From: Zhihengliuella sp.
Lineage (GTDB): Bacteria > Actinomycetota > Actinomycetes > Actinomycetales > Micrococcaceae
Reading direction: 5' to 3'
Assembly (NCBI RefSeq): GCF_031178195.1
Contig: NZ_JAPSJL010000002.1
Coordinates: 247,593 to 311,592, forward strand
DNA: 64,000 bases
A model generated the notes under the pieces. It ran no database searches, had not been told where the DNA came from, and worked only from the letters and a program-made list of their open reading frames with translations. Positions 10,524-58,090 of the stretch are shown one piece after another (the first letter of the stretch is position 1; every line of letters begins with the position of its first letter). The position numbers were made by a program, and so were the translations under genes.

Positions 10524-11174
10524 CTATGCGGCGTCGTCGTCCCGGTCCATCAGGCCGCGGGCCGCGAGCGCGTCGGCGGTGCGGTGCGCGTAGCCGACCG
10601 CGCTGACCACCACCGGCCCGGCGAGCACGAGCGGGTTCCGCCGGAGGCCGCGGGCCGTCGCAGCGTCGGTCACGTCGCCGGCGGCCCCGGCGAGGGCGGG
10701 GATGCTCCGCAGCATGACGTGAAGGGCGAGGGTGACCGCGTCCGCGTCCACGCCGAGGCGCCGCAGGGGGGCGAGCGCCCGGGCCAGCCCGTCCAGCAGG
10801 TCGGCCTGCTCGGTGCTGAGCAGCAGCAACCGGGCCGCCTGCAGCGCGGCGAGCATGCTTCCGACGATGCCGACCGCGTGCCAGAGGCCGGCCAGGCCCC
10901 CGCCGGCGAGCCACCACTGGTGCACACCCAGGATGGCGAACATCCACCAGAGGTGCTTCAGCGGCCACGCCCAGCGGCTCAGCACGTGGCGCCCGGCCAG
11001 GGCGTAGAGCAGGACAGTCAGGGCGGTGAGCCCCACGGCGACGGGTGCGATGCGCCACACCAGGGCCGCGGCACCGATCGCGAGGACCGCCAGGTACTTG
11101 GCCCACAGCGGCGCCCGGTGGATCGGGGAGCTGCCGGGGACGAAGAGGCCGAATCGATCCGCGCGGGCGCGCAT
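10524..11174 (-). CDS. bioN: Energy-coupling factor transmembrane protein (BioN/EcfT)
   Basis: A 216-residue membrane protein with about five hydrophobic segments and the two Ala-Arg-Gly elements of EcfT proteins, TARGLRRNP and AARGLMDRD, whose coupling helices contact the ATPase. It follows the BioM-like ATPase with a TGATG one-base overlap. With BioY and BioM it should form a dedicated biotin uptake transporter. Confidence 0.9.
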   Translation of the reverse strand: MRARADRFGLFVPGSSPIHRAPLWAKYLAVLAIGAAALVWRIAPVAVGLTALTVLLYALAGRHVLSRWAWPLKHLWWMFAILGVHQWWLAGGGLAGLWHAVGIVGSMLAALQAARLLLLSTEQADLLDGLARALAPLRRLGVDADAVTLALHVMLRSIPALAGAAGDVTDAATARGLRRNPLVLAGPVVVSAVGYAHRTADALAARGLMDRDDDAA

Positions 11175-11914
11175 CAGACGCCCTCCAGGGCCAGGTGCCG
11201 GTAGGCGTCGACGGCGTCGGACGCGGCTCCGTCGAAGACGATCCGGCCGTCCTCGACGACGAGGGCTCGGTCCGCCTCCGCTGCGAAGGCGAGGTCGTGC
11301 GTCGCGTAGACGACCTGCTGCTCAAGCCCGTCGAGGGTCCGCCGCAGCAGCGCGTCGTTGCGCAGGTCCAGCAGCGTGGTCGGCTCGTCCGCGACGAGAA
11401 TCCGCTGGCCGGCGGCCAGGACGGTCGCCAGGGCGGCCAGCTGCCGCTCGCCGCCGGAGAGGTCATAGACGCTGCGCTCCGCGAGACGTTCGATCCCCAG
11501 GCGGGCGAGCACCTCCAGCGCGTGCGCCCGCCGCTCGGCGCGGTCACGGACCCGGGCCCGGAGCGAGAGCTCGACGTCCTCGACCACCACCGGCATCACC
11601 AGTTGGGCGAGCGGGTCGGTGAAGAGGAACCCGACCGTCCGGCGCACGCGCCCGGTGTCCCGGACGGTGCACGCGCCGTCGACGAGGACCCGCCCGGTGC
11701 TCGGCCGCGCCAGGCCGTTGATCAGCTTCAGCAGCGTGGACTTTCCCGAGCCGTTGGCGCCGATGACCGCGATGCGCCGCTCGGTCAGCGTCAGCGTGAG
11801 TGGATGCAGGAGGTCGCGGGCGGCGTCGGGCAGGCCGCGGCGCTGCGCATCCTCGTCCGGGACCGACACTCCCGCGGACTCGAACACGATGGATGGTGCT
11901 GGCATGGTCTCCAT
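11174..11914 (-). CDS. bioM: Energy-coupling factor ABC ATPase (BioM)
   Basis: A 246-residue ATPase with Walker A GANGSGKST, signature LSGGERQLAALA and Walker B ILVADEPTTLLDL. The order bioY-bioM-bioN on the minus strand identifies it as the ATPase of a biotin ECF transporter. The ATG at 11912-11914 leaves a 24-base gap to bioY. The sequence before the first beta strand (residues 1-15) is poorly conserved, so an internal start is possible. Confidence 0.9.
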   Translation of the reverse strand: METMPAPSIVFESAGVSVPDEDAQRRGLPDAARDLLHPLTLTLTERRIAVIGANGSGKSTLLKLINGLARPSTGRVLVDGACTVRDTGRVRRTVGFLFTDPLAQLVMPVVVEDVELSLRARVRDRAERRAHALEVLARLGIERLAERSVYDLSGGERQLAALATVLAAGQRILVADEPTTLLDLRNDALLRRTLDGLEQQVVYATHDLAFAAEADRALVVEDGRIVFDGAASDAVDAYRHLALEGV

Positions 11915-11938: not shown

Positions 11939-12595
11939 CTAGCCCCGGAAGTCCCGGCGGGCCAGCCGCGGGAACGCCTTGAACACGGTCAGGGCGATGA
12001 GCGCTGCGAGGAAGCACTTGACCAGGTCGCCGGGCCAGTACGGGAGGTCGTACAGGGCCGCCTGCGCCAGCGGCAGCTGGGCATTGAGGCTCATGCCCAG
12101 GATGCCGAGCGGGTGGGTGGCCAGGAACGATCCGGCGAGGCAGGCGAGCACGAGCAGCAGGAGGGCCCCAGGGCCGCGGGCGGGGCGGCGGGCGAGGGCG
12201 CGGGTCGCGACGGCACCCACGATCAGGGCGTTGAGCGGGAACGCGAGCAGGTACCCGGCGGTCGGGCCGGCGAGGACGCCCAGCCCGCCGGAGAACTGCG
12301 CGAACACCGGCAGCCCGGCCAGTCCGACGACGACGTAGAGCAGCACGGCCGCGGCGCCGCGCCAGGCGCCGAGGATGAGCCCGCACAGCGCCACGCCGAG
12401 GGTCTGCAGGGTGATCGGCACGCCCAGCGGGCCCACCGGGATGGCGGGCAGGAGGGCGAGCACGGCCAGCAGGGCGGCGAAGACGGCGATGAAGGCGACG
12501 TCGCGGGCCGTGGCGGCGGAGCGCCTCGGTGCGTCGGCGGCCGGGGTGCCGGGGGCGGAATCGGGCACGACGGCGTCGGGGTTGCGGATCGGCAT
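11939..12595 (-). CDS. bioY: Biotin transporter substrate-binding component BioY
   Basis: A 218-residue S component with six predicted membrane helices. BioY hallmarks are VPITLQTLGVALCGLILG and GGLGVLAGPTAGYLLAFPL. It binds biotin in the membrane and pairs with BioMN for uptake. I start at the ATG at 12593-12595, preceded by GAGGAG. A BioQ-like palindrome stands about 20 bases upstream. Upstream in-frame residues to 12877 run past the promoter and into the neighbouring gene. Confidence 0.93.
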   Translation of the reverse strand: MPIRNPDAVVPDSAPGTPAADAPRRSAATARDVAFIAVFAALLAVLALLPAIPVGPLGVPITLQTLGVALCGLILGAWRGAAAVLLYVVVGLAGLPVFAQFSGGLGVLAGPTAGYLLAFPLNALIVGAVATRALARRPARGPGALLLLVLACLAGSFLATHPLGILGMSLNAQLPLAQAALYDLPYWPGDLVKCFLAALIALTVFKAFPRLARRDFRG

Positions 12596-12613
12596 GGTGA
12601 ATCTCACTCCTCT

Positions 12614-12628
12614 TGAACAGTGTTCAAC
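12614..12628. promoter_or_regulatory. BioQ-like operator upstream of bioY
   Basis: The sequence TTGAACAGTGTTCAA is a palindrome with perfect seven-base arms about a single base. Its core TGAAC-N3-GTTCA is the form described for the TetR-family biotin repressor BioQ in corynebacteria and mycobacteria. On the bioY strand it lies just after a possible -10 TAGGAT (12631-12636) and before the GAGGAG ribosome site, so a bound repressor would block transcription initiation. Confidence 0.75.
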
Positions 12629-12701
12629 GATCCTACACGAGCCGTCACCGATAGACTGGTATGTCGCCCTGCATTGCTTTCCGTCTGGAGTTGAAACCCC
12701 C

Positions 12702-14303
12702 GTGATATCCGTTGCCGACCTTGAACTGCGCGCCGGCGCACGCCTGCTCATGGAAGGCGTCTCGTTCCGCATCGACAATGGAGACAAGATCGGTCTGGTC
12801 GGGCGCAACGGCGCCGGCAAGACCACGATGACCCGCGTCCTGGCGGGGGAGGGGCAGCCCGCCGGCGGAACCGTCACGAGCAGCGGGAGCGTCGGCTACC
12901 TCCCGCAGGACCCCCGCACGCCGAACATGGACCAGCTCGCCCGCGACCGGATCCTCGCGGCCCGCGGCATGGACGAGATCGTCGGCCGGCTGCGCAGAGT
13001 CCAGGACGAGATGGCCAGCGAGGACGCCGAGGTCCAGGCCAAGGCCATGCGCCGCTACGACCGGCTGGAGGCGGAGTTCATCGCCGCCGGCGGTTACGCC
13101 GCGGAGTCCGAGGCCGCAGCAATCTCCAACAACCTCGCCCTGCCCGAGCGGATCCTCAACCAGCCCCTGAAGACGCTCTCCGGCGGTCAGCGCCGCCGCG
13201 TCGAGCTGGCCCGCATCCTCTACTCCAATGCGGATACGCTCCTGCTCGATGAGCCGACCAACCACCTCGACGCCGACTCCATCGCCTGGTTGCGCGAGTT
13301 CCTCAAGAACCACCAGGGCGGCCTGCTGGTCATCTCGCACGACACCGAGCTGCTCGAGGCGACCGTCAACAAGGTGCTCTACCTCGACGCCATGCGAGCC
13401 ACGGTGGATCTCTACAACATGGGCTGGAAGCGCTACCAGGACCAGCGCGTCGCGGACGAGGAACGCCGGCGCAAGGAACGCGCCACGGCGGAGAAGAAGG
13501 CCGCCCAGCTCAAGGACCGTGCCGCGCGCTTCGGCGCCAAGGCCTCCAAGGCCTCGGCCGCGCACCAGATGGCCGCCCGCGCCGACAAACTGCTCGCCGG
13601 GCTCGAGGACGTGCGCCAGGTCGACCGCGTGGCCGCGCTGCGGTTCCCGACCCCGGCGCCCTGCGGGAAGACCCCGCTCATGGCGGAGGGGCTCAGCAAG
13701 TCCTACGGCTCCCTCGAGATCTTCACCGACGTCTCACTGGCGATCGACCGCGGCTCCAAGGTCGTCATCCTCGGGCTGAACGGCGCGGGCAAGACCACCC
13801 TGCTGCGCATGCTCGCCGGGGTCGCGCAGCCGGACACCGGCGAGATCCAGCCCGGCCACGGGCTGAAGGTGGGCTACTACGCCCAGGAGCACGAGACCCT
13901 GGACCACGACGCGAGCGTCCTGGAGAACATGCGCCGTTCCGCGCCGAGCCATCTGGGCGACGCGGATATCCGCGGCATCCTCGGCTCGTTCCTGTTCGTC
14001 GGCGACGACGTGGACAAGCCCGCCGGCGTGCTCTCCGGCGGAGAGAAGACGCGCCTGGCCCTGGCGACCATCGTCGCCTCGAGCGCCAACGTGCTGCTGC
14101 TGGACGAGCCGACCAACAACCTGGACCCGGCCTCCCGTGCCGAGATCCTCAACGCACTGTCCAACTTCGAGGGAGCCGTCGTCATGGTCAGCCACGACGA
14201 GGGAGCGGTCCAGGCGCTGAACCCCGAGCGCGTGGTCCTGCTGCCGGACGGCGACGAGGACCTGTTCAGCGACGAGTACCTCGAGCTCGTCACCCTCGCG
14301 TGA
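12702..14303 (+). CDS. ABC-F family ATPase
   Basis: A 533-residue soluble protein with two ABC domains: Walker A GRNGAGKTT and GLNGAGKTT, signatures LSGGQRRRVELA and LSGGEKTRLALA, and Walker B LLLDEPTNHLD and LLLDEPTNNLD. A charged linker rich in Arg/Lys/Glu (about residues 240-290) joins them. ABC-F proteins act on ribosomes; the particular role here is unknown and it differs from EttA at 59180. The GTG at 12702 matches the family start (VISVADLELRAGARLL); the longer frame overlaps bioY and its operator. Confidence 0.9.
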   Translation: MISVADLELRAGARLLMEGVSFRIDNGDKIGLVGRNGAGKTTMTRVLAGEGQPAGGTVTSSGSVGYLPQDPRTPNMDQLARDRILAARGMDEIVGRLRRVQDEMASEDAEVQAKAMRRYDRLEAEFIAAGGYAAESEAAAISNNLALPERILNQPLKTLSGGQRRRVELARILYSNADTLLLDEPTNHLDADSIAWLREFLKNHQGGLLVISHDTELLEATVNKVLYLDAMRATVDLYNMGWKRYQDQRVADEERRRKERATAEKKAAQLKDRAARFGAKASKASAAHQMAARADKLLAGLEDVRQVDRVAALRFPTPAPCGKTPLMAEGLSKSYGSLEIFTDVSLAIDRGSKVVILGLNGAGKTTLLRMLAGVAQPDTGEIQPGHGLKVGYYAQEHETLDHDASVLENMRRSAPSHLGDADIRGILGSFLFVGDDVDKPAGVLSGGEKTRLALATIVASSANVLLLDEPTNNLDPASRAEILNALSNFEGAVVMVSHDEGAVQALNPERVVLLPDGDEDLFSDEYLELVTLA

Positions 14304-57891: not shown

Positions 57892-58090
57892 ACCGGAAAA
57901 TATACCACCACTCCGCGAGTCGTTGTAAAGCCATCGTCGTAGGCGGCGTGCACCCCTGAACACAGTTCTGAACACAAATACTGGGGACGCACCTCGACCC
58001 GGCCCGACCCAGGCGAGACTAGAAAGCCGTCTGACTAGGCCTACCCGACGCACCTCGACGCACGCCGACGCAGACAAGCAGAGCCCAGGA
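57892..58090. other. Right end of the island, no gene
   Basis: Contains the promoter side of the 206-residue gene, the TGAACACA pair and a fragment CTGACTAGGCCT (58033-58044 region) similar to the terminator stem at the left end. No coding capacity recognised. Confidence 0.5.
57957..57976 (+). repeat. Right TGAACACA tandem (possible integrase arm site)
   Basis: Octamers TGAACACA at 57957-57964 and 57969-57976, twelve bases apart and followed by AATACT as on the left side (ATTACT). They lie about 115 bases inside attR. Confidence 0.55.

Follow-up and report, generated by a model that had tools for sequence, protein, structure and literature searches.

The palindrome TTGAACAGTGTTCAA, which stands before the biotin uptake operon bioYMN in a genome of Zhihengliuella sp., is, with high confidence from sequence comparison, an operator for BioQ, a biotin repressor of the TetR type, and the BioQ encoded in the same genome is predicted to control bioYMN and bioB by biotin supply. 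We favor this reading because both exact copies of the 13-mer core of the palindrome directly precede biotin genes, a BioQ orthologue is encoded, the site is conserved in the genus, and site and repressor co-occur among relatives.

The sites before bioY and bioB

Within the window, the 64-kb stretch of DNA that we analyzed, the exact motif TGAAC-N3-GTTCA has a sole match, TGAAC-AGT-GTTCA at 12614-12626, inside the 15-mer; none of 100 dinucleotide shuffles contained a match. The sequence-only reading had recognized this palindrome, which is real, but had placed it at 12614-12628, one base off its true position (Table 1). The motif that it assigned to BioQ is printed in that form in PMC3398298. 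Read along the minus strand, the region runs TAGGAT, 2 nt, TTGAACACTGTTCAA, GAGGAG, 11 nt, and the ATG of bioY, with 17 nt between the end of the 15-mer and the ATG. The palindrome had been described as lying between a probable -10 element and the bioY ribosome site, and TAGGAT and GAGGAG do flank it, but a sigma-70 promoter scan of positions 12560-12760 returned no promoter that passes its rules. Because the scan came back empty, we infer the bioY promoter with its -10, a transcription start within the operator, and the translation start; promoter and ATG are probably as assigned. The congeners have TACCAT where TAGGAT stands in the Zhihengliuella host. Downstream of BioY, the genes encode an ECF-type ATPase and then a CbiQ-type component, which is the bioYMN order.

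Table 1. Features of the bioY region (positions in the window)
Feature	Position	Strand	Basis
Palindrome TTGAACAGTGTTCAA, probable BioQ operator	12613..12627	.	sequence read; genome counts; congener conservation
TAGGAT, candidate -10 of bioYMN	12630..12635	-	inspection; 2 nt upstream of operator
GAGGAG, probable bioY ribosome site, abuts operator	12607..12612	-	inspection
bioY, biotin-binding membrane component	11939..12595	-	PF02632 BioY, 121.7 bits vs cut-off 25; ATG 12595 picked by inspection
bioM, ECF-type transporter ATPase	11174..11914	-	TIGR04520, 142.9 bits, below cut-off 315 (best NCBIfam match); PF00005; named by position
bioN, transporter transmembrane component	10524..11174	-	PF02361 CbiQ, 42.9 bits vs cut-off 25; named by position
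ABC-F ATPase gene, divergent, same intergenic region	12702..14303	+	NF000355, 390.5 bits vs cut-off 380

Instead of bioYMN, the palindrome could mainly serve the ABC-F gene on the other strand, given that the intergenic region and the bioYMN/ABC-F gene order are kept in 4/4 congeners and that the site is 74 nt away from the GTG start of that gene, beside where its -35 element would be expected. However, the motif is also found before bioB, and it precedes bioY or bioM at loci where no ABC-F match of at least 45% identity was seen (L099, L102, L111); we regard primary control of the ABC-F gene as highly improbable. All rows of the genus alignment share the hexamer TAGACT (window 12652-12657), a possible -10 element of the ABC-F gene. 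If so, the BioQ site would abut the -35 region of that gene, and one operator might touch both promoters.

When the host genome (3,146,349 bases, 15 contigs) was scanned, the exact 13-mer was located in two places, before bioY and before bioB, in keeping with the earlier prediction that it would recur upstream of bio genes. This count alone is unremarkable, since the reversed control already gives one match. More telling are where the copies stand and the longer 15-mer: TTGAACANTGTTCAA with at most one mismatch occurs in two places in the genome, and its control in none. The second copy, on contig C11, is the same 15-mer, and 16 nt separate its end from the start codon (ATG) of bioB (TIGR00433, 380 bits vs a cut-off of 225). 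Within 20 kb around the bioB site, no further 15-mer was found even at two or fewer mismatches. Places with one mismatch to the 13-mer number 17 in the genome; a crude look at the context of 16 of these, in 15 stretches (the 17th is at 57957 of the window), demonstrated no biotin gene behind any of them. All but two of the 16 (L200 and L201) lie inside a stop-to-stop, GC3-rich frame, by a test that is crude and too generous: a place on contig C6 scored as inside, yet it precedes the likely start codon (ATG) of a gene that diverges from the TetR gene L015.

The palindrome could also be fortuitous, or form part of an RNA hairpin, a terminator, or a similar element, and the 13-mer count (two vs one in the control) is by itself compatible with chance. 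Against this, its place is conserved before bioY in the genus (this genome and 4/4 congeners examined) and before bioB across genera, including this genome and 3/3 congeners that have bioB; the leader has no more stable a fold than its shuffles (z 0.39), no Rfam family matched it at gathering score, and no terminator was found. We dismiss chance because of placement and conservation, the 13-mer count playing no part, and give neither chance nor an RNA element any appreciable credence. A LexA box was considered as the owner of the palindrome and rejected: the actinobacterial LexA box, with its spacer of four bases and its outer C/G, does not fit.

The BioQ candidate and its co-occurrence with the site

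The expectation of a bioQ gene elsewhere in the genome was borne out, with the correction that the gene is close to bioB and not at an unrelated locus. Among 21 TetR-type matches, one at C11:452405-452983, approximately 2 kb from the bioB site, encodes a 193-amino acid protein with PF00440 and PF02909 above cut-off. It ranks first of the 21 against the Mycobacterium smegmatis 5xs9 segment, with 74.7 bits vs 47.0 for the runner-up, and its best PDB matches by sequence are 5xs9, 5yek, and 5yej, all titled BioQ and the last containing the DNA operator; identity to the M. smegmatis protein of these entries is 35% over 171 aligned positions. In a 38-row tree, the candidate falls within a 29-row clade that includes M. 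smegmatis BioQ (support 95/99), and nine other TetRs of the genome fall outside it, seven of these with long branches that make their own positions unsure. No BioQ model was among the six NCBIfam matches. Lysine 47, which is reported to be acetylated in M. smegmatis BioQ (PMC6800001), is invariant in 16/16 rows of alignment A1 and in 27/27 rows of alignment A2. A structural model of a congener's BioQ (pLDDT 91.6) has 5xs9, 5yek, and 5yej as its top structural matches (Z 20.4-20.5, 39-40% identity), with the other TetRs 3bqy and 2opt next at Z 19.4 and no clear gap between them; the modeled fold would thus fit BioQ without singling it out. With an orthologue encoded and the 13-mer in only two places, the genome presents neither of the observations that the sequence-only reading had named as contrary to it, the lack of a bioQ homologue and many random copies of the palindrome.

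Another TetR of this genome, such as those encoded on contigs C6 and C3, might own the bioY site instead: L015 and L024 are the next-best matches to BioQ, and each of the two genes has an imperfect palindrome upstream. These palindromes, TGAATGTAGTTCA and CGAACACTGTTCG, nevertheless differ from the bioY site, both proteins fall outside the BioQ clade, and the TTGAAC palindrome tracks BioQ across genomes; ownership by another TetR is very unlikely. The palindrome-like TGAATGTAGTTCA (L202:1060-1115, G000:C6), which lies between L015 and a divergent gene, is probably the operator of L015 itself. Upstream of L024, the third-best match to BioQ in the genome, CGAACACTGTTCG (L215:997-1009, G000:C3) has the inner nine bases of the BioQ site with C/G outer bases.

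Among 59 relatives, a BioQ match (E <= 1e-10) was found in 22 and TTGAACANTGTTCAA with at most one mismatch in 24 (reversed control, 1/59); the two occur together in 20 (p = 7e-10, shared ancestry ignored). Across 197 genomes of the family, the exact TTGAACNNNGTTCAA is present in 109 and its control in 8. With BioQ called at E <= 1e-25, 97 of these genomes have both, 28 BioQ only, 12 the site only, and 60 neither (Fisher p = 4e-17, shared ancestry again ignored); that is, the exact 15-mer is absent from 28 of the 125 genomes with BioQ and present in 12 of the 72 without it. This cut was picked after the list had been seen, and cuts of 1e-12, 1e-40, and 1e-55 give p <= 1.3e-10. Biotin control could in principle be exerted by a DNA-binding ligase of the BirA type rather than by BioQ, and bioY is reported to be under BirA in other phyla (PMC11089781). 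The motif, however, tracks a TetR protein, and a BirA-type explanation has next to no chance of holding here.

Site and gene neighborhoods were examined in 40 stretches from 23 relatives, taken around a BioQ match or a site. The site lies before bioB in 15 and before bioY or its partner genes in 11; one stretch has a site beside a second BioQ-like TetR only, three (L096, L103, L107) have a site next to none of the reference genes, and 10 are without a convincing site. In genome G029, a second, diverged BioQ-like TetR gene (L091:4777-5392, 29% identity) is preceded, at distances of 39 and 73 nt, by perfect TTGAAC-N3-GTTCAA sites, with no reference biotin genes nearby; it is possibly a BioQ paralogue with the same operator.

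Named genomes were scanned with a BioQ alignment, and the best 80 loci were used. These contain 85 exact 13-mers in 55 loci, vs a single match for ten control palindromes summed, and in 25 the fetched stretch has no exact 13-mer. An exact 13-mer is found near the bioB 5' end (from 60 nt inside to 400 nt upstream) in 54 of the 56 loci with a bioB match, the misses being L151 and L182, the latter with a weak, partial bioB match. The 15 loci with kynU and without bioB have no site, and one of the remaining nine has a site. In the two Mycobacterium loci, whose BioQ shares 67-68% identity with the 5xs9 segment, the site lies between a BioB-like gene and bioQ. The combination of bioB, site, and bioQ also appears in a record titled Sporosarcina beigongshangi (Bacillota; L144:4764-6594), whose BioQ pairs with an Arthrobacter copy (99/99) and therefore points to transfer or contamination.

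Biotin gene content and the bioQ neighborhood

No bioD match was found in this genome, and its best matches for bioA and bioF are below cut-off; the bioA match is better described as a protein of the aspartate aminotransferase family, the bioF match as a glycine C-acetyltransferase. To judge by its gene content, the host may import biotin, perhaps dethiobiotin, and carry out the last synthesis step only. The pathway is at different stages of decay within the genus (L003:9264-10349, G000:C11; also L073 and L075). In G001, bioB is followed in series by bioA, a gene resembling bioF that scores below the curated cut-off, and bioD; bioB and bioD are present in G002 and G004, this genome has bioB without bioD, and G003 has neither, with no bioB over cut-off, no bioD match, and BioQ and the bioY operator retained.

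In this genome, and likewise in G001, kynU (kynureninase) and an AsnC/Lrp-type gene lie between bioQ and the bioB operator. The bioQ gene starts 16 nt past the lrp stop, with the kynureninase gene divergent (L003:11892-12987, G000:C11), and no 15-mer of its own was found close by in this genome. In G002 and G004, bioQ and bioB are divergent around one shared site, and loci of Glutamicibacter and Paeniglutamicibacter also have kynU-lrp close to bioQ, in a different order. Linkage of bioQ to bio genes, present here, was seen in several genera, but not in all. One could imagine that bioQ has lost its place beside its operator and now sits in a probable operon behind the AsnC/Lrp-type regulator, that the BioQ level follows the tryptophan/kynurenine state instead of being set by autoregulation, and that BioQ, after the loss of bioA, bioF, and bioD, governs only scavenging via bioYMN and bioB; taken as a whole, we consider this scenario unlikely.

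The proposed circuit and its known counterparts

In the scheme of binding, repression, and biotin response that we infer, a BioQ dimer would bind the 15-mer that stands in front of both bioYMN and bioB, where it would occupy the presumed transcription start or a position just beyond it. When biotin is plentiful, BioQ would remain bound, such that biotin uptake and the final synthesis step are kept low; when biotin is short, BioQ would release the operator, allowing bioYMN and bioB to be expressed. Because bioB is kept while bioA, bioF, and bioD were not found, the circuit would now govern scavenging.

As in this genome, the BioQ regulon of Corynebacterium glutamicum includes the uptake operon bioYMN with an operator at its start. 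Transcription of bioY in C. glutamicum is reported to begin at the first base of the start codon, and the bioY primer printed in the same paper reads TTG and then, directly after this start codon, TTGAACACTGTTCAG (PMC3398298); primer and start position therefore put the operator at the start site there, as we suggest for the Zhihengliuella host. The C. glutamicum operon is reported to be induced under biotin limitation, and among the citing papers, PMC4554459 cites its repressor as BioQ. Neither C. glutamicum nor, judged here from gene content alone, the Zhihengliuella host synthesizes biotin de novo. The C. glutamicum regulon covers bioYMN and biotin synthesis genes, whereas bioB is the sole synthesis gene behind the motif here, and the 15-mer here is a perfect palindrome, unlike that of C. 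glutamicum; the comparison covers operon and motif. In M. smegmatis, BioQ is reported to control bioB, for which the motif suggests the same here, and also to target bioFD (PMC9302846), whereas here bioYMN is the predicted additional target and bioF and bioD were not found. The repressors BirA and BioR, like the BioQ proposed here, are described as controlling both synthesis and uptake genes (PMC11089781, PMC4554459), but BirA belongs to the biotin ligases and BioR to the GntR-type proteins (PMC11089781), whereas our candidate is TetR-type (PF00440). In the account given in 2015, there was no direct evidence that BioQ binding needs biotin metabolites, and sensing was then open (PMC4554459). 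BioQ has been predicted in 11 of 27 actinobacterial genomes, as cited in PMC3398298, and none of the open-access papers listed evidently concerned BioQ in Micrococcaceae.

The control circuit itself is known, and the bioY and bioB sites are very probably a further, well-supported example of it. They would carry a circuit known from work on Corynebacterium and Mycobacterium over to a Micrococcaceae genome in which operator and repressor are both identified, and the survey of relatives supplies many further candidate BioQ operators. The genus spans stages of pathway loss, from bioB with bioD, through bioB without bioD, to neither gene, and BioQ and the bioY operator are present in this genome and in 4/4 congeners. 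Zhihengliuella may thus offer a natural series in which a repressor of biotin biosynthesis becomes a repressor of biotin uptake.
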